Both the position numbers and the translations under genes were made by a program. A DNA stretch of 64,000 nucleotides, from positions 1 to 64,000 of the forward strand of contig NZ_JANUFF010000011.1 in the NCBI RefSeq assembly GCF_024806495.1. The letters run 5' to 3'. Positions 4,286-13,482 of the stretch are shown here, in pieces (the first letter of the stretch is position 1; the number at the start of each line of letters is the position of its first letter). Origin of the DNA: Chryseobacterium sp. JUb7. GTDB taxonomy: Bacteria; Bacteroidota; Bacteroidia; Flavobacteriales; Weeksellaceae. The notes under the pieces were generated by a model. That model saw only the letters and a program-made list of their open reading frames with translations. It was not told where the DNA came from and did no database searches.

Positions 4286-5358
4286 ATAGGAATAATTAAT
4301 TTAACGACATATTCATTTTCTGTGGAAATAATTTCCAGATCATAGGTTTTTCCATATAAAAGTTCAAGACGCCTCCTGATATTGGCGAGCCCGAGCCCAC
4401 TGTACTTTTTGTCCGAAACTACAAATTCTGGGTTTCGGGAATTGGTACAGGTAAAATATAATTCTCTATTCTCAATTTCAACATCAATTCTGATATAAGA
4501 TTCTTTCCCATTTAGTTCTACACTATGCTTGATGGCATTTTCTAAAAATGTTGTGAAAAGATTGGGCGGAATAAAAGTGCTGTTCAGTATTCGCCGGTCG
4601 GTTTTACTTTTAATTTCAACCGAAAGGTTTTCCCGCCTTATTTTTTCCAGGTTTAAAAAATTGGATAAAAACTCAATTTCTGACGTTAATAGAGTTTTTT
4701 CCTCGCTGTTTTCATAGAGTTGATATCTTAAGAATTCAGAAAGCTTGATAATAACTGTCGATGCTTTTTCAGGATCTGTTCTGATTAATGCCTTTACATT
4801 GTTCAGCATATTAAACAGAAAATGAGGATTGATCTGATTCCGTAACTCATTGAGCTCCATATTCAGTGTAAGGTTACTTAATTCTGTAATCCTTTTATTG
4901 TCTTTCGTCCATTTTTGTAAAAGTTTGATCGTTGTTGTGGTCAGAATAATCGGAATACACATTAATACCCCTTCATAAATCCCGCCTTTCTCCCCTTCGC
5001 GATGAATATTAACGACTCTAAAATCTGAAAAGAAGACATCAAAACAGTATCCTATAAAGTTGAGCCCCATTACTCCCAATAAAATCAAAAGAATGAGATA
5101 AGTGATATACTTTGTTTTAAAGAAAAATAAAGGAACCAGTACATAAATATTGATATATACCATTCCTATCAATAATATATAAACGAAAAAAAGGATATAG
5201 TACTGATGAATTCCCGAATACCAATGCCAGAAACGAGCATTATAAATTAAAAGAAAAAAGAAAATAAGAAATACCAGATGCCGTAACAGCCTGTATCGGT
5301 CTTCAATAAGAAAATCGATAAACCAGTTGTTTTTCAGTTCTTCGGAAATGTATTTCAT
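4282..5358 (-). CDS. LytS/YpdA-type sensor histidine kinase
   Basis: Membrane sensor kinase of 358 residues. Several hydrophobic helices occupy residues about 25-145, with no large extracellular sensor domain. The cytoplasmic part has the His_kinase motif NQINPHFLFN with H179 as predicted phosphoacceptor, followed by a HATPase_c region with GLGLANIRRRLE. It is paired with the LytTR regulator that overlaps its 3' end. The ligand is unknown. The gene is divergent from the 5545-6938 operon, so the two share a control region of about 185 bp. Confidence 0.92.
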   Translation of the reverse strand: MKYISEELKNNWFIDFLIEDRYRLLRHLVFLIFFFLLIYNARFWHWYSGIHQYYILFFVYILLIGMVYINIYVLVPLFFFKTKYITYLILLILLGVMGLNFIGYCFDVFFSDFRVVNIHREGEKGGIYEGVLMCIPIILTTTTIKLLQKWTKDNKRITELSNLTLNMELNELRNQINPHFLFNMLNNVKALIRTDPEKASTVIIKLSEFLRYQLYENSEEKTLLTSEIEFLSNFLNLEKIRRENLSVEIKSKTDRRILNSTFIPPNLFTTFLENAIKHSVELNGKESYIRIDVEIENRELYFTCTNSRNPEFVVSDKKYSGLGLANIRRRLELLYGKTYDLEIISTENEYVVKLIIPI

Positions 5359-5431
5359 TGGCTAATTATCAGAAACAAAAATAAGTAATAACGGAATCGG
5401 AAGGCATAATATTATACCAACCCTGCAATTT

Positions 5432-5524
5432 ATTATACAAAATTTTTCAACTCCCGATTTTGTATAAAATATAAGGCATTTCGTATAAAAAACACTTTCC
5501 CGAAAGCTATTCTCTATTCCTTTG
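5432..5524 (+). promoter_or_regulatory. Candidate LytTR operator and promoter for the 5545 operon
   Basis: Two direct copies of TTTYGTATAAAA lie at 5458-5469 and 5479-5490, exactly 21 bp apart start to start. An inverted copy (TTATACAAAA, 5432-5441) lies upstream. A -7-like box, TTCCTTTG (one mismatch to TAnnTTTG), is at 5517-5524, 59 bp after the first repeat. A two-turn direct-repeat spacing is the usual layout for LytTR regulators, and the divergent gene pair encodes one. Assignment of the site to that regulator is inference. Confidence 0.6.
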
Positions 5525-5544
5525 TCCTGTAAAATTTAAAATGT

Positions 5545-5973
5545 ATGGAATTAAACGCTTTTCAGGAATTAACTGAGAAAATCACATTGGAATGCTTTTA
5601 TATGTCTGATTCTCAGCAGGAAGAAAAAATCATTCAGTTAATTGATCTTCACCATTTTATAGAATGCTATAATCAAAGTTTAAAAGTGATTGATTATGTA
5701 AACAATCCGGTGAATATTATTGAAGAAAACGGAACAAAAAAGGGAATTTTATTTTATGATCTGAAGTTTTCGGCACCTTTAAATCCTTATGCTTCGGAAG
5801 AATTCAAAAAACAGCATCATCTTGAGGAACTTTGGTTTGTATTTGTAGAAGAGGATATGAAAACGCCTCCGGGTATGCATTCGGATTTTATTATCGAAAA
5901 CGGAATTGAAGTATTCTATGACAAGATATTCATTTTCAATTTTTTTCAGTCAAAAATCACCCCTATAAAATAA
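5545..5973 (+). CDS. Hypothetical protein, first gene of LytTR-adjacent operon
   Basis: A 142-residue protein without signal peptide or membrane helix and with no family I recognise. It is acidic, with a conserved-looking aromatic core (LEELWFVFVEED, IEVFYDKIFIFNFF). It lies two bases upstream of the outer-membrane protein gene at 5976, so the two are almost certainly one transcript. The operon is divergent from the LytS/LytTR pair and preceded by a 21-bp direct repeat, so it is a plausible target of that regulator. Confidence 0.7.
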   Translation: MELNAFQELTEKITLECFYMSDSQQEEKIIQLIDLHHFIECYNQSLKVIDYVNNPVNIIEENGTKKGILFYDLKFSAPLNPYASEEFKKQHHLEELWFVFVEEDMKTPPGMHSDFIIENGIEVFYDKIFIFNFFQSKITPIK

Positions 5974-9480: not shown

Positions 9481-9506
9481 TTAGTTAGGGACCCTAACTA
9501 AATTTG
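9481..9506 (+). promoter_or_regulatory. Perfect palindromic operator overlapping -7 box
   Basis: Arms TTAGTTAGGG (9481-9490) and CCCTAACTAA (9492-9501) are perfect reverse complements around one central A. The right arm runs into a -7 box TAAATTTG (9499-9506). The -33 region is poor (TTTC near 9470). A bound dimer would block RNA polymerase. The obvious candidate is the MarR regulator encoded three genes downstream, which would make the operon autorepressed. Confidence 0.75.
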
Positions 9507-9546
9507 TATCAGAAAATTAATCTTTAAACAATCAAAATTTTAAACA

Positions 9547-9780
9547 ATGAAAAAATCAGTTTTTTATCATGCAGGTTGTCCGGTTTGTATAAGCGCAGAA
9601 CATGACATCATTACATTAATCGGACAGGATAATGTAGAAATCGTACATCTTGGAAACAATAAGGAAAGAATTGAAGAAGCAGAAAAAGTAGGTTTGAAAT
9701 CTGTGCCAGCTTTAGTAACACCAACCGGAAACGTTCTTCACATCAACTTCGGTGCTTCTATGGAAGAAGTAAAAGGTTAA
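9547..9780 (+). CDS. Small thioredoxin/glutaredoxin-like protein
   Basis: A 77-residue cytosolic thioredoxin fold. It opens KSVFYHAGCPVC with a C11-P-V-C14 redox motif and has the cis-proline at P54 (KSVPAL), followed by the expected final beta-hairpin. It is shorter than classical thioredoxin and nearer glutaredoxin-like minimal folds. It is the first gene of the 9.5-12.2 kb operon and is read from a promoter covered by a palindromic operator. Likely a disulfide reductase or a carrier of a thiol signal for the downstream genes; the electron donor is unknown. Confidence 0.8.
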   Translation: MKKSVFYHAGCPVCISAEHDIITLIGQDNVEIVHLGNNKERIEEAEKVGLKSVPALVTPTGNVLHINFGASMEEVKG

Positions 9781-9784
9781 AAAA

Positions 9785-9828
9785 TTTGCTTCACATAGTT
9801 AGGACTACTACCTTTGTGAAGCATTTTT
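9785..9828 (+). promoter_or_regulatory. Internal promoter with operator half-site and attenuator-like hairpin
   Basis: TTTG at 9785-9788, a 20-bp spacer and TACCTTTG at 9809-9816 form a full -33/-7 promoter. Between the boxes lies TAGTTAGG (9796-9803), identical to the left half of the 9481 palindrome. The same stretch forms a 9-bp hairpin (TGCTTCACA 9787-9795 with TGTGAAGCA 9815-9823) followed by five T, so it can also terminate transcription from the first gene. Confidence 0.6.
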
Positions 9829-9864
9829 ATTATTAATTAAAGTAACATTTTAAAATTTAATACA

Positions 9865-10128
9865 ATGCAAGTAGCAGTCTGGGACACTTACGTCACAAAA
9901 AAGGACGGATCAGTAATGCATTTCGACATCATTGCTCCTAAAGAAATTACAGAAACAGACATAATCTACAGCTACGGAAAAGATTATTTAAAAAAGAAAG
10001 GGCAGGAAAGCCAGGAACTTTCTGCAAAAGAATGCAGTTTCTGCCATATAGAAACGCTTCTTCCACAATGGGAAGCCGAAATTAATGAAAAAGGCTATAC
10101 CATTATAGAAATGGAAAATTGTAATTGA
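9865..10128 (+). CDS. DUF2024 family protein
   Basis: An 87-residue protein matching DUF2024: QVAVWDTYVTKKDG at the N-terminus, a middle KECSFCH motif (C57, C60) and a C-terminal YTIIEMENCN with a third cysteine at 86. Function unknown for the family; the CxxC could bind metal or cycle through a disulfide. Its stop overlaps the start of the MarR gene by one base (TGATG), indicating translational coupling. The gene has its own internal promoter carrying an operator half-site. Confidence 0.85.
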   Translation: MQVAVWDTYVTKKDGSVMHFDIIAPKEITETDIIYSYGKDYLKKKGQESQELSAKECSFCHIETLLPQWEAEINEKGYTIIEMENCN

Positions 10129-10739
10129 TGAACGAATCAGATTTTAACTTAAAGCATCAGAATCAAAGTACGGAGAGCAAAATTGTGGCTTCTTTAGAAA
10201 GAATTTCGCAGGCTTTCCGTGTTTTGCTTTGGCAGGAAAGTAAGGAACATGCTTTGAGCCCGATTCAGGTGCAGGTTTTGATTTTTCTTTTGAACCACAG
10301 CGATGAAAAAAGAAAAGTAAGCTATTTGGCTGATGAATTTAACATGACGAAAGCCACAATCAGCGAAACTGTAAAATCTCTTGAACAAAAAAATCTGATT
10401 ACCAAAGAATATGAACCTCACGATACGCGAAGCTATATTATTCACCTTACCCAAAAAGGAAAAGAAATAGCAGATAAAACTTCTTATTTTACAAAGGAAA
10501 TTACCGCTCCGATCCAAAAACTGGATGAACAAAGCAAAGAAAATATGCTTCAAAGCCTGTTTGGGATTATTCAGCAGCTCAATACTTCAGGAGTCATTAC
10601 GATTCAGAGAATGTGTTCGACCTGTGCTTATTTTCAACCTTCAAAGGACGGAAAAGAGCCTTTCTGCAAGCTTTTGGAGCAAACATTATATGCCGAAGAT
10701 CTCCGAATCGACTGTCCTGAACATCAAATGAAAGCCTAA
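10128..10739 (+). CDS. MarR-family regulator with C-terminal four-cysteine tail
   Basis: A 203-residue protein. Residues about 15-150 form a MarR winged-helix domain (LSPIQVQVLIFLL, then YLADEFNMTKATISETVKSLEQKNLI as recognition helix and wing DTRSYIIHLTQKG). The C-terminal extension has C163-x2-C166-x13-C180-x15-C196, absent from ordinary MarR proteins and suited to binding zinc or an Fe-S cluster, or to sensing oxidants. The start is ATG 10128, overlapping the DUF2024 stop by one base. It probably represses its own operon through the palindrome at 9481. The sensed signal is inferred, not shown. Confidence 0.85.
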   Translation: MNESDFNLKHQNQSTESKIVASLERISQAFRVLLWQESKEHALSPIQVQVLIFLLNHSDEKRKVSYLADEFNMTKATISETVKSLEQKNLITKEYEPHDTRSYIIHLTQKGKEIADKTSYFTKEITAPIQKLDEQSKENMLQSLFGIIQQLNTSGVITIQRMCSTCAYFQPSKDGKEPFCKLLEQTLYAEDLRIDCPEHQMKA

Positions 10740-10756
10740 CTCTAAAAATAAAAACA

Positions 10757-11479
10757 ATGAATCTGTACAATCTTATTATTCAAGACAAAGAAGAAGAAGT
10801 GACCCTCAATGATGTTTTCCTTGAACCTAAAAATAAGGAACAATTTGTACAGCTCATTAAAGAAAATACTTATTCCAAAGAATTGCAGGAATATGGGCTC
10901 CCTGTCAACAACAAAGTGCTTCTTCAGGGAAGTTCGGGTTGTGGAAAAACAATGACTGCAAAAGCTGTTGCGAATGCTTTGGGTAAAAACATCATCATTC
11001 TTAACTTAAGTAATATTGTCTCTTCAAGAATCGGGGAAACATCTCAGAATATCAAAATGATTTTTGATAAAGCTGCTCGTGAAAGATCCGTACTTTTTCT
11101 CGATGAGCTCGACCAGATCGGCAAAGCGAGAGGCAGCGACGATAAAGATGTGGGCGAAATGAGACGACTGGTAAATACATTGATCCAGCTGATTGACTAT
11201 TATCCTGACAATGCACTCCTTTTGTGTGCTACAAATCACCCGGAAATCATTGACACAGCTTTGATCAGACGTTTCCAGCTGAAAATTAATTATGAAATGC
11301 CGTCAAAAGATTTCCTGGATACTTTTTATGATAATCTGTTGTCGAAATTCCCTGAAGATCTAAGAAAAATAGCCCGAAAATATGATGTTTCTTTTGCAGA
11401 GGCGAAAGATCATACGTTTACGGTGGTGAAAGGAAATTTAATTCACAAACTGGAAACTCAACGTCAAACGCAATCATGA
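10757..11479 (+). CDS. AAA+ ATPase (FtsH/26S-like ATPase module without protease domain)
   Basis: A 240-residue single AAA+ module. Walker A is GSSGCGKT at 58-65, Walker B VLFLDE at 112-117, sensor 1 is T159-N160 in LCATNHPE, and arginine fingers are R171-R172. There is no protease, membrane or helicase domain, and the C-terminal lid is short. It lies 17 bases after the MarR gene and overlaps the YggS gene by four bases, so it belongs to the same operon. The substrate is unknown; standalone modules of this kind remodel a protein partner. Confidence 0.85.
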   Translation: MNLYNLIIQDKEEEVTLNDVFLEPKNKEQFVQLIKENTYSKELQEYGLPVNNKVLLQGSSGCGKTMTAKAVANALGKNIIILNLSNIVSSRIGETSQNIKMIFDKAARERSVLFLDELDQIGKARGSDDKDVGEMRRLVNTLIQLIDYYPDNALLLCATNHPEIIDTALIRRFQLKINYEMPSKDFLDTFYDNLLSKFPEDLRKIARKYDVSFAEAKDHTFTVVKGNLIHKLETQRQTQS

Positions 11480-12207
11480 AAGAAGATCTACTCCACAACC
11501 TTGAACTCATCAACCAGAGAATAAAGAATGCTTGTGAAAAAGCGGGTCGAAATGTTGATGAAGTTAAATTATTACTGGCTACAAAAACCGTTTCCGCTGA
11601 AAGAATTAAAATTGCTCTAGAAAATGGGGAGACTTTAATTGCTGAAAATAAAGTTCAGGAATTAAAGGAAAAGTACGAAGATTTAAAAGAAATTGCGCAC
11701 GAAAATCATTTTATCGGACATCTTCAGACCAATAAAATCAAGGATATTTTGAAATATGGAGTAAGCTGCGTTCAGTCTGTTGATCGGATTGATTTAGCTG
11801 AAAAACTTCATCAAAGGCTTTTGTCAGAAGGAAAAAGAATTGATATCTTCATTCAGGTGAATACTTCGAATGAGGAAAGTAAGTTTGGAATTCATCCTGA
11901 TTTTGCTCTAGATCTGGTGAAAAAAGTGGCTGAATTGAATACTTTAAAAATCAAAGGTTTGATGACGATTGGCTTATTTAGCGCAGAAACAGAGAAAGTA
12001 CGAGCTTGTTTTAAAATTCTTAAAAATCTACAACAGGAAATCATCCAGCAAAACATCCCGAATGTGGAGATGAAAGAACTTTCCATGGGAATGAGCGGAG
12101 ATCTGGAAACAGCTATTGAAGAAGGATCTACGATAGTGAGAGTGGGAACGGCAGTTTTTGGAGCCAGAATTTATCCGGATTCTTATTATTGGAATGAGGG
12201 GAAATAA
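11476..12207 (+). CDS. YggS-family pyridoxal-phosphate homeostasis protein
   Basis: A 243-residue PLP-binding protein of the YggS/PROSC family, with an alanine-racemase-like TIM barrel. K37 in LLATKTVS is the expected PLP lysine. Family signatures include NKVQEL, HFIGHLQTNK, SVDRIDLAEKL, FIQVNTSNEESKFG, LSMGMSGDLETAIEEGST and VRVGTAVFGAR. It buffers intracellular PLP and affects amino-acid homeostasis; no catalytic activity is established. In most bacteria yggS lies near proC or sepF genes. Here it is the last gene of a redox-type operon and overlaps the AAA+ gene by four bases (ATGA). Confidence 0.93.
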   Translation: MKEDLLHNLELINQRIKNACEKAGRNVDEVKLLLATKTVSAERIKIALENGETLIAENKVQELKEKYEDLKEIAHENHFIGHLQTNKIKDILKYGVSCVQSVDRIDLAEKLHQRLLSEGKRIDIFIQVNTSNEESKFGIHPDFALDLVKKVAELNTLKIKGLMTIGLFSAETEKVRACFKILKNLQQEIIQQNIPNVEMKELSMGMSGDLETAIEEGSTIVRVGTAVFGARIYPDSYYWNEGK

Positions 12208-12690: not shown

Positions 12691-13482
12691 ATGAACGAAA
12701 CATTTAATTTTAATAATGAATTAAAGGCTAAAATTGCTTTAGTTACAGGTGGTACAAAAGGAGCAGGAGAAGCCATTGCAAAAAGATTACATGAAGCAGG
12801 AGCAACAGTGATCATCACAGCGAGAAATCCACCTGAAGATGAAAATGGTCTGCATTTTATTTCAGCAGATTTAAGTACTTCCGAGGGAACTCAAAAAGTT
12901 GTAGAAGAAGTTTTACAGAAATTCGGAAGGCTGGATATTCTGGTCAATAACCTTGGAGGTTCAGAAACTACAGGCGGTGGTTTTGCTGTACTGACAGACG
13001 ATGACTGGCTGCAATCGCTGCAGACGAATTTATTATCCCCTGTACGTTTAGACAGAGCTTTTTTACCCCAGATGATTGAAAGGAAAACCGGAGTAATTAT
13101 TCATATTGCCTCTATTCAGGCAAGATTACCCTTATATGACAGCACCCTTCCCTATGCGGCTGCAAAAGCAGGTTTACTGAATTACAGCAAAAGTTTATCC
13201 AATGAAGTTGCACCAAAAGGAATTCGGGTTCTGACGGTTTCACCAGGCTGGATCATGACCACCGCTTCTGAAAGAATGATGGAAAGGATTGCTGAAAGTA
13301 ATAACAGCTCCATCGAACAGGCAACACAAAGCGTAATGGATGCTCTCGGCGGAATTCCTTTTGGAAGACCTGCACAGCCTCAAGAAATTGCTGAACTGGT
13401 AGGATTTCTTGTTTCACCAAGAGCCAACTATCTCACCGGAACCGAATATATCATTGACGGAGGAACAATACCTACAATTTAA
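12691..13482 (+). CDS. SDR-family oxidoreductase
   Basis: A 263-residue short-chain dehydrogenase/reductase. The cofactor motif TGGTKGAGEAIAK is TGxxxGxG-like, followed by ADLSTSEG, NNLGG (the usual NNAG variant), the catalytic Ser of HIASIQARLP, and Tyr-x3-Lys in YAAAKAG. The ending YIIDGGTIPTI is typical of classical SDRs. NADP preference and substrate are unknown. It is paired with a SnoaL-like gene 16 bases downstream and with a divergent HxlR regulator, an arrangement typical of inducible detoxification of quinones or aldehydes. Confidence 0.9.
   Translation: MNETFNFNNELKAKIALVTGGTKGAGEAIAKRLHEAGATVIITARNPPEDENGLHFISADLSTSEGTQKVVEEVLQKFGRLDILVNNLGGSETTGGGFAVLTDDDWLQSLQTNLLSPVRLDRAFLPQMIERKTGVIIHIASIQARLPLYDSTLPYAAAKAGLLNYSKSLSNEVAPKGIRVLTVSPGWIMTTASERMMERIAESNNSSIEQATQSVMDALGGIPFGRPAQPQEIAELVGFLVSPRANYLTGTEYIIDGGTIPTI

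Follow-up and report, generated by a model that had tools for sequence, protein, structure and literature searches.

Gene organization of the locus

Within the window (the whole analysed stretch of 64,000 nucleotides, i.e. positions 1 to 64,000 of contig NZ_JANUFF010000011.1 of Chryseobacterium sp. JUb7), five open reading frames follow a 21-bp palindrome. They encode a thioredoxin-like (Trx-like) protein, a DUF2024 protein, a MarR-type regulator, an AAA+ ATPase and a YggS-type protein, and were present as described in an initial annotation of this DNA, together with the CxxC motifs and the four-Cys tail of the regulator:

9481-9501: 21-bp palindrome TTAGTTAGGGACCCTAACTAA, putative operator O1, with a 19-bp core TAGTTAGGGACCCTAACTA at 9482-9500
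9499-9506, + strand: first-promoter -7-like box TAAATTTG, which overlaps the operator at its 3' end
9547-9780, + strand: Trx-like ORF, 77 aa, Trx fold, C11-P-V-C14
9783-9832, + strand: conserved terminator-like hairpin, stem 9787-9795/9815-9823, then a T-run
9796-9803: operator half-site TAGTTAGG in the inner part of the hairpin
9865-10128, + strand: DUF2024 ORF, C57-S-F-C60
10128-10739, + strand: MarR ORF, ATG start, tail cysteines C163, C166, C180 and C196
10757-11479, + strand: AAA+ ATPase ORF, IetA-like
11476-12207, + strand: YggS-type PLP-binding ORF, the genome's second YggS paralogue

The tight spacing reported after the second gene was measured as a 1-base overlap (DUF2024-MarR), a gap of 17 bp (MarR-AAA+) and a 4-base overlap (AAA+-YggS); the Trx-like and DUF2024 ORFs are 84 bp apart. 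Comparison with other genomes splits the five-gene set. As defined by these sequence comparisons, the module is made up of the Trx-like, DUF2024 and MarR genes and the operator.

As a single sequence, the Trx-like ORF fails to reach the cut-off in any of the three Pfam families listed for it. The profile of its family matches PDB chain 2k8s ('Thioredoxin', 1.5e-31), and the CxxC is kept in all 75 relatives; profile and motif together assign a Trx fold with CxxC (thioredoxin/glutaredoxin-like). In a 20-row alignment the relatives are 71-81% identical to the window protein. The DUF2024 ORF matches PF09630 (9.1e-34, 115.7 bits against a cut-off of 27), its PDB relative is 2hfq ('Hypothetical protein', 6.5e-15) and 64 of 67 relatives keep the C-x2-C-H. 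DUF2024 occurs in 13 of 28 genomes with the Cys-tailed MarR compared to 6 of 367 without it. Among the papers listed in searches by code or locus name, no title concerned 2k8s or 2hfq.

An operator half-site had been proposed to lie inside a second promoter at 9796. The half-site TAGTTAGG is present, but it sits within the conserved terminator-like hairpin, which was overlooked earlier and whose inner part also holds the second -7-like box TACCTTTG. In an alignment of 29 homologues, 25 cells were changed on both sides of the stem, compared to 7.0 in shuffles, and 95.3% of the cells were paired. These homologues were hand-picked, leaving out near-identical ones and those folding otherwise, from the 46 of 75 Trx loci that match AGTTAGGA at 7 of 8 positions after trx. 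Because they were chosen by this match, the conservation of the AGTTAGGA stretch is partly due to selection; that of the hairpin stem and of the CTAnCTTT stretch is not.

The regulator and its four-cysteine tail

The MarR ORF exceeds the curated cut-offs of MarR_2 (1.2e-11, 45.1 bits, cut-off 27) and MarR (31.7 bits, cut-off 24.6), and this winged-helix domain places it in the MarR family. Membership in the Rrf2/NsrR family was rejected, with the Rrf2 domain reaching 15 bits at a cut-off of 30.

All four tail cysteines are kept in 108 of 108 MarR homologues, where the first two are partly selected in the pattern-fetched loci because one of the two peptide patterns used for fetching contains the first CxxC. 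They are also kept in all 34 homologues from searches without a Cys-containing pattern, and they are invariant in a 33-row alignment reaching down to 27% identity. The layout of the tail is C-x2-C-x(10-17)-C-x(about 15)-C. Conserved cysteines able to ligate a cluster, a trait of Fe-S NO sensors, are present, their role as ligands being putative.

The structural model has a pLDDT of 90.9, with the tail blocks 161-200 at 83-89. MepR/SlyA/OhrR-type MarR repressors share the MarR core fold: a Foldseek search returned 4l9t as best match, and a profile search of PDB sequences with the family returned MepR 4ld5. The 50 Foldseek matches listed are mostly annotated as MarR and, given without ranges, uninformative on the tail. 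In the profile search, the matches listed (60 of 121 PDB sequences) stop by profile position 154. Among these, no solved protein matches the Cys tail, which sets the regulator apart from the MepR/SlyA/OhrR type.

A conserved predicted operator

The palindrome TTAGTTAGGGACCCTAACTAA is of odd length with an unpaired centre base, and is the sole match in its own genome (4.95 Mb, 33 contigs) at up to 3 mismatches. Its reported position over the first -7 box was reproduced and is near-fixed also in relatives; the weight of the palindrome comes from this conservation and not from one genome. When up to 4 mismatches were allowed and the 200 bp before the first gene were searched, the consensus TAGTTAGGANTCCTAACTA was found upstream of 90 of 107 operons, one of the 108 loci (L113) having been dropped for too little upstream DNA. 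This includes all 74 operons with Trx as first gene. The same threshold gave 0 hits in 471 upstream regions of control ORFs and 8 in 2140 shuffles. A -7-like box stands at constant offset in the operators, as TAnnTTTG, the Bacteroidetes -7 consensus, in 69 of 90 and as TAnnTTT in 81 of 90. Seventeen of the 107 loci have no operator within 200 bp, among them 8 of the 10 with MarR as first gene. In loci from searches other than the peptide-pattern search, 22 of 34 carry it.

The loci used to derive the consensus also served for counting it; the clean part of the evidence consists of the genomes without the regulator and of 15 new sites. Of these sites outside the consensus set, 14 precede a module gene. 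Sites with at most 1 mismatch occur in 13 of 395 genomes of the phylum, all of them among the 28 carrying the regulator (Fisher 5e-17). The remaining 15 of the 28 have no such site, including the window genome, whose site has 2 mismatches. At 2 mismatches a reversed control pattern matches as often as the true pattern, and 8 of 33 regulator-carrying genomes had no site at all in the 2-mismatch search.

Some of the sites stand in front of a protoglobin or cytochrome P460 gene or of an operon including truncated haemoglobin (trHb). One genome (G220) has its only site on a contig other than that of marR, where it starts 54 bp ahead of a P460 gene. Another (G552) has two: the first precedes P460-DUF2024-MarR, and the second, on a different contig, precedes Trx-DUF2024. 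The window genome has one operator site and no haem-protein target was found there. The comparison shows the Cys-tailed MarR to belong with predicted operators of the type TAGTTAGGANTCCTAACTA, usually over a -7-like box, before trx-like/DUF2024/marR operons. Elsewhere, the same predicted site precedes protoglobin and P460 genes or trHb operons, in some cases outside the marR locus.

Palindromic operators at the own operon are usual, though not universal, in the MarR family, and such a putative site is present here. The module had been thought to regulate itself, in line with which the predicted operator and the Cys-tailed MarR go together (13 of 13 site genomes; 90 of 107 operons). Because of this pairing and of the sites before module and haem genes, the regulator most likely acts as a local, autoregulated repressor of nitrosative stress.

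Gene neighbourhood, distribution and haem partners

A survey of related genomes, which could have refuted the module, supported it for Trx-like, DUF2024 and MarR: in 101 of 108 loci a module gene, a haem gene or both lie within 1.5 kb of the MarR. The Trx-like gene is the commonest partner (within 1.5 kb of MarR in 74 of 108 loci). The 108 loci were left after 6 of 114 were removed as duplicates of earlier-fetched loci. As several loci of one genus inflate such counts, MarR sequences were clustered at 80% identity, giving 68 clusters, 54 with the operator, 62 with a module or haem gene and 27 with a haem gene. Single linkage at 70% gave 37 clusters, with values of 25, 31 and 16, respectively. 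The module is scattered, occurring patchily across Bacteroidota and a few neighbouring phyla.

The initial annotation had overlooked that protoglobin, truncated haemoglobin and cytochrome P460 occur as haem-protein partners. At least one of protoglobin (Pfam 1.8e-34), bacterial globin (3.7e-5) and cytochrome P460 (1.8e-35) lies within 1.5 kb of MarR in 32 of 108 loci and 27 of 68 clusters, whereas none of 24 loci of other MarR genes, which all come from the family of the window's organism, has one. In 76 of 108 loci none of the three lies within this distance. These partners point towards nitrogen-oxide chemistry. They do not single out NO, since O2 binding and activity on hydroxylamine also occur among haem proteins of this kind. 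For a further partner of 245 aa ('c3'), neither a Pfam family nor a PDB sequence relative was found, and its poor model (pLDDT 66.9) gave no fold match at E ≤ 0.001.

Co-occurrence with denitrification is expected for, but does not strictly define, Fe-S NO sensors. NosZ exceeded its cut-off in 21 of 33 genomes with the regulator and in 16 of 33 hand-picked genomes without it, NirK in 6 and 8 of 33, respectively, and in the window genome neither did. With no clear enrichment of either, denitrification was rejected as the setting.

Relation to known regulators

NsrR is an Fe-S protein. It is a repressor responding to nitrogen oxides (PMC1274295, excerpt) and belongs to the Rrf2 family, whereas the Cys-tailed protein is a MarR_2 protein with different operators. 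Excerpts on ArnR of Corynebacterium describe a winged-helix repressor with three conserved Cys, which carries a [4Fe-4S] cluster on its C-terminal cysteines, loses DNA binding upon nitrosylation, controls the NO-detoxifying haem protein gene hmp and has homologues almost exclusively in Actinobacteria (PMC12343034). Compared by this description, both are winged-helix proteins with Cys in the C-terminal part; they differ in the number of cysteines (three compared to four), in their targets and in the groups in which homologues occur. HcpR of Bacteroides/Porphyromonas is a nitrosative-stress regulator of the same phylum (PMC12750200, excerpt), and the motif given for the HcpR2 branch is GTAACnnnnGTTAC (PMC1274295, excerpt). 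As described in these excerpts, HcpR is a haem-dependent FNR/CRP-family protein, in contrast to the MarR with a Cys tail found here.

The initial impression that this is not a described system was borne out by the literature searches. The excerpts retrieved for MarR with DUF2024, four-Cys MarR, protoglobin with MarR, and MarR with Fe-S, NO and Flavobacterium contained no description of the module. Nor did the matches listed for Bacteroidetes NO regulators and P460 regulation (excerpts, PMC1274295 and PMC11928373 among the sources).

Proposed mechanism

On balance we favour a small stress switch that acts locally, regulates itself and senses nitrogen oxides by a labile metal on the Cys tail; we take it for a probable, as yet undescribed, nitrosative-stress sensor. 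A MarR dimer on the operator would shut the promoter by occlusion. By analogy with ArnR, we infer a [4Fe-4S] cluster or another metal on the four Cys, most likely a labile [4Fe-4S] centre. NO or related nitrogen species would nitrosylate or damage this cluster and DNA would therefore be released, turning the operon on. Where present, NO- or hydroxylamine-handling haem proteins would be the output, while the 77-aa Trx-like reductant and DUF2024 may restore thiols or protein-bound metal. In the window genome, the output would comprise the Trx-like protein, DUF2024 and the regulator.

The thiol- or metal-sensing idea put forward earlier survives in that, with four conserved cysteines, the input is most likely sensed through Cys. 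The tail could instead be a thiol-oxidation switch that lacks a metal centre and is not specific for NO. Its four Cys would form disulfide bonds upon exposure to hypochlorite, disulfide or electrophiles, and the Trx-like protein would reset them. Cys oxidation is a known sensing mode of MarR regulators (OhrR, MexR, HypR), and no gene accompanies this MarR more often than the CxxC Trx-like one (74/108). Yet four cysteines in 108 of 108 homologues are more than a single disulfide pair requires, the C-x2-C...C...C layout resembles metal sites, and globins, protoglobin and P460 are, to our knowledge, not disulfide-stress genes; we regard such a switch as unlikely. A structural zinc knuckle, with the true ligand (nitrite, hydroxylamine, haem or another small molecule) bound elsewhere in the MarR dimer, would fit the frequent zinc binding of four-Cys tails and a model that folds the tail confidently without pointing to a cluster type. 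The haem-protein partners, however, suggest a gas or redox signal, and we give this reading, too, little credence.

Extending the favoured metal-based switch, the Cys-tailed proteins may form a new MarR repressor family whose tail [4Fe-4S] cluster senses NO and which, through one operator, controls a nitrosative-stress regulon over Bacteroidota and neighbouring phyla. This would give DUF2024 and the 77-aa Trx-like family a first functional setting and make the hairpin after trx a second point of control, acting through RNA or the operator. This extended version is tentative, and we rate it as possible rather than probable. If true, it would link nitrogen-oxide chemistry to a strongly conserved mini-thioredoxin and to DUF2024, a protein of unknown function that a single paper of the literature searched mentions. 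With HcpR, the phylum's NO regulator in the excerpts found, being of FNR/CRP type, the Cys-tailed MarR would add a second sensor type. The constancy of the operator makes binding, induction and regulon directly testable, and this in environmental bacteria that are harmless.

The AAA+ and YggS genes

The AAA+ ORF matches Pfam AAA (1.2e-31), and the YggS ORF matches Ala_racemase_N (5.4e-18) and TIGR00044 (1.4e-55). The suggestion that the module acts through the ATPase was not supported: AAA+ is found at 80% identity or more in 19 of 20 genomes sampled from the genus, MarR in 2 of 20. Of the 108 loci, 6 have AAA+ beside MarR, as do 3 of the 68 clusters formed at 80% identity. A YggS relative (at least 78% identity) occurs in 9 of the 20 genomes, the window's included, always beside the AAA+ gene. 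All ten congener AAA+ loci fetched are without the Trx/DUF2024/MarR trio; one (L217) has the window's flanking genes with AAA+-YggS, and two others (L209, L213) have AAA+. By these comparisons AAA+ is an older genus locus and not part of the module core, and it was rejected as effector. AAA+ and YggS would be an older neighbouring pair which the module now precedes and with which it is probably co-transcribed.

That all five genes form one system, in which the IetA-like AAA+ protein works with DUF2024 and YggS to remodel or unfold damaged proteins, would agree with the close spacing and overlap in the window, with the six loci in which AAA+ follows MarR, including the full five-gene order in Niabella drilacis (L114), and with the adjacency of YggS-AAA+ to DUF2024 in the MarR-less genomes described below. 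Given the distribution of AAA+ and the congener loci, we consider this quite improbable. An anti-phage locus of the IetAS type, in which IetA is partnered by the protease IetS, is highly improbable. The AAA+ protein matches IetA profiles (PADLOC 2.8e-58; NCBIfam 2e-49), but it misses the NCBIfam equivalog cut-off by far (168.7 of 510 bits) and has 240 aa where the models mostly have lengths of 330-395. A profile scan of the three flanking and five module proteins found no protease, and the IetAS identity was rejected.

Among MarR-less genomes with DUF2024, YggS-AAA+ adjoins DUF2024 or Trx-DUF2024 in 4 of 6, which is why a loose link of AAA+ and YggS to DUF2024 stays conceivable. The other YggS paralogue of the window genome is at G000:C1:579273.

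Conservation of the MarR module

The module consisting of a thioredoxin-like (Trx-like) protein, DUF2024 and a MarR-type regulator with a cysteine tail is real and conserved. ORF and profile analysis of the window agrees with the initial annotation in the five ORFs, their cysteine motifs and their spacings. The MarR frame fits best with an ATG start at 10128, which shares one base with the DUF2024 stop codon.

9481-9501, palindrome, predicted operator
9547-9780 (+), Trx-like protein
9787-9823, hairpin with T-run
9865-10128 (+), DUF2024
10128-10739 (+), Cys-tailed MarR
10757-11479 (+), AAA+ ATPase
11476-12207 (+), YggS

Relatives of this MarR were found at E <= 1e-20 in 28 of 395 phylum genomes and 22 of 170 genera by profile search. 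With the single sequence as query, scores exceeded 150 bits in 6/148 genomes of the family and 2/20 of the genus; the remaining matches reached at most 36 bits and did not cover the tail. Scanning a single genome for each species yielded at least 518 confirmed relatives among at least 594 stretches. The best 80 of these, which were taken on, include Chryseobacterium, Niabella, Flavobacterium, Sphingobacterium, Parapedobacter and others, as well as MAGs labelled Ignavibacterium, Balneolaceae, Pyrinomonadaceae and Acidobacteria. Among the matches listed, the closest named relative belongs to Chryseobacterium sp. JAH (86% identity over MarR), which points to a Chryseobacterium as the source of the window. 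Together with earlier loci and minus 6 duplicates, these 80 form a set of 108 loci.

All four cysteines are present in 108/108 loci, although in scan loci the first two are partly selected, since one peptide pattern of the species scan contains the first CxxC. All four are likewise present in 34/34 loci from outside the scan and invariant in a 33-row alignment (A2) down to 27% identity.

Neighbouring genes were counted within 1.5 kb of MarR. The initial annotation had linked DUF2024 with this MarR type, and the survey bears this out (68 of 108 loci). A Trx-like gene is near in 74 loci, protoglobin in 16, truncated haemoglobin (trHb) in 12, cytochrome P460 in 5, YggS and c3 (an unnamed 245-aa family) in 11 each and AAA+ in 6. 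Of the 108 loci, 101 hold one or more of the Trx-like, DUF2024, c3, globin, protoglobin and P460 genes, and 32 hold one or more haem genes. The latter were identified by Pfam (Protoglobin 1.8e-34, Cytochrome_P460 1.8e-35, Bac_globin 3.7e-5); one DUF2024 protein (L069) carries a fused globin part, which lies slightly below the Pfam cut-off. The Trx-like, DUF2024, c3 and haem families were absent from 24 control loci around other MarR genes of the window's family. Genome-wide, DUF2024 occurs in 13/28 genomes with the Cys-tailed MarR (MarR+) vs 6/367 without it (MarR-; Fisher 1e-12).

Members of c3 (e.g. L070:4325-5062, L104:502-1242, L138:4420-5157) have by eye a signal-peptide-like start and no Pfam match; c3 is the first gene behind the operator in L229 and split into two ORFs in L079. 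A 203-209-aa family lies between DUF2024 and MarR in five loci (L127, L135, L137, L148, L157), its L148 member having a CPGC motif, a redoxin-like appearance by eye and no Pfam match. A MarR-less DUF2024-Trx-trHb cluster (L206:4323-8808) adjoins haem-copper oxidase subunit I (PF00115) and a FixO/cytochrome c protein.

The predicted operator

A single consensus, TAGTTAGGANTCCTAACTA, is common to many of the top palindromes found ahead of the first gene. Allowing 4 mismatches over the 18 fixed bases and 200 bp from the first gene, the operator was found in 90/107 loci (16 exact, 22 with one and 30 with two mismatches), vs 0/471 control regions upstream of the loci's other ORFs and 8/2140 shuffles. 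It precedes 74/74 Trx-like, 10/15 protoglobin, 2/5 P460, 2/3 DUF2024 and 2/10 MarR first genes, and occurs in 22/34 loci from outside the scan. In Trx-first operons it starts 52-74 bp upstream of the start codon. TAnnTTTG follows at constant offset in 69/90 cases (TAnnTTT in 81/90); the predicted operator thus overlaps a -7-like box, so that repressor and polymerase would compete. In the window the palindrome, described as perfect, is exact except for its centre base, and its final bases are the initial bases of the first such box (9499-9506). Its own genome holds no other match at up to 3 mismatches.

In L087 a protoglobin gene (4917-5555), on the strand opposite MarR, has the operator directly upstream. 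A second palindrome, GGCAATATTGCC, occurs at up to 3 mismatches in 55/90 operons (e.g. L034, L098, L103) vs 4/900 shuffles, about 4 nt past the -7-like box and in 47 of the 55 exactly 4 nt past TTTG. Inspection by eye did not show it in the window, L032, L095 and L096; a second regulator might bind there, at the transcription start.

Because the consensus was drawn from MarR loci, the genome-wide searches are informative in two respects: the absence of sites from MarR- genomes, and the sites away from the locus. With at most one mismatch, 14 sites were found in 13/395 phylum genomes, all 13 MarR+ (Fisher 5e-17), and none in 367 MarR- genomes, among them the six with DUF2024; the reversed control pattern matched in 2/395. 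Fifteen of 28 MarR+ genomes lack such a site, including the window genome (2 mismatches). A 16-base pattern at 2 mismatches finds a site in 25/33 MarR+ genomes, but the reversed control matches equally often, and this search is therefore useful near the locus only. The single off-locus site of the one-mismatch scan, in genome G220, starts 54 bp upstream of a cytochrome P460 gene on a contig other than that of MarR.

Another sample, of 395 genomes of the class, gave 20 sites in 19 of them. Of the 17 new ones, 16 precede a module gene and one lies inside a long unrelated ORF, the gene start being set by family length wherever the longest ORF covered the site; without two sites whose loci fed the consensus, the figure is 14/15. 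MarR is visible in the fetched stretch of 13 of the 16 new genomes. In G552 one site precedes P460-DUF2024-MarR and another, on a different contig, Trx-DUF2024. On this comparative evidence the Cys-tailed MarR pairs with the predicted operator, which bears out the self-regulation proposed initially, and haem-protein genes lie behind the predicted operator in part of the genomes.

The hairpin behind the Trx-like gene

An operator half-site at 9796 had been placed inside a second promoter. The half-site is present; it forms part of a hairpin (9787-9823), accompanied by a T-run, in the gap after the Trx-like gene. In 29 homologues, hand-picked from 46 candidates matching AGTTAGGA at 7 of 8 positions or more, 95.3% of cells are paired and 25 cells carry a change on both sides vs 7.0 in shuffles, a signal lost when partner columns are slid by one to three. 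The constancy of the AGTTAGGA stretch is partly due to this selection; CTAnCTTT, also constant, was not a selection criterion. The element resembles either a terminator or attenuator that encloses an operator-like core, or a second repressed promoter.

Proposed mechanism

MarR is probably a repressor of the Cys- or metal-sensing kind. It has a definite operator and would probably act in nitrosative stress. Its tail would hold a metal or Fe-S cluster, NO would be the signal, and MarR would repress from the operator. The solved relatives of DUF2024 (2hfq) and of the Trx-like protein (2k8s) both presumably come from Nitrosomonas europaea, which produces hydroxylamine and NO. NosZ exceeded the cut-off in 21/33 MarR+ vs 16/33 hand-picked MarR- genomes and NirK in 6/33 vs 8/33, which speaks against a link to denitrification. 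The nearest precedent is ArnR, a wHTH protein that represses nar and hmp; its [4Fe-4S] cluster involves C-terminal cysteine, and nitrosylation abolishes its DNA binding (PMC12343034). Cytochromes P460 have hydroxylamine as a substrate and bind NO (PMC11928373). Cys- or metal-sensing repressors are a known kind; this one is a variant, and the module was not met in the papers searched.

AAA+ and YggS

AAA+ is present at 80% identity or more in 19/20 genus genomes and a close YggS paralogue in 9/20 (window included in both), adjoining AAA+ every time. The trio of Trx-like, DUF2024 and MarR genes was absent from 10/10 congener AAA+ loci fetched. Flanking genes of the window are kept with AAA+-YggS in L217 and with AAA+ in L209, and in L213 AAA+ lies 70 bp after the MepB-like flanking gene. 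The trio has thus been added here (or else lost). Niabella drilacis (L114) has the five genes in identical order, and YggS-AAA+ adjoins DUF2024 or Trx-DUF2024 in 4/6 MarR-less DUF2024 genomes. From this gene order, a loose functional link of AAA+ and YggS to the module appears possible.

Downstream in the window lies a further pair, which stays together in L209 and L217:

12216-12584 (-), HxlR-type regulator (PF01638)
12691-13482, adjoining SDR oxidoreductase
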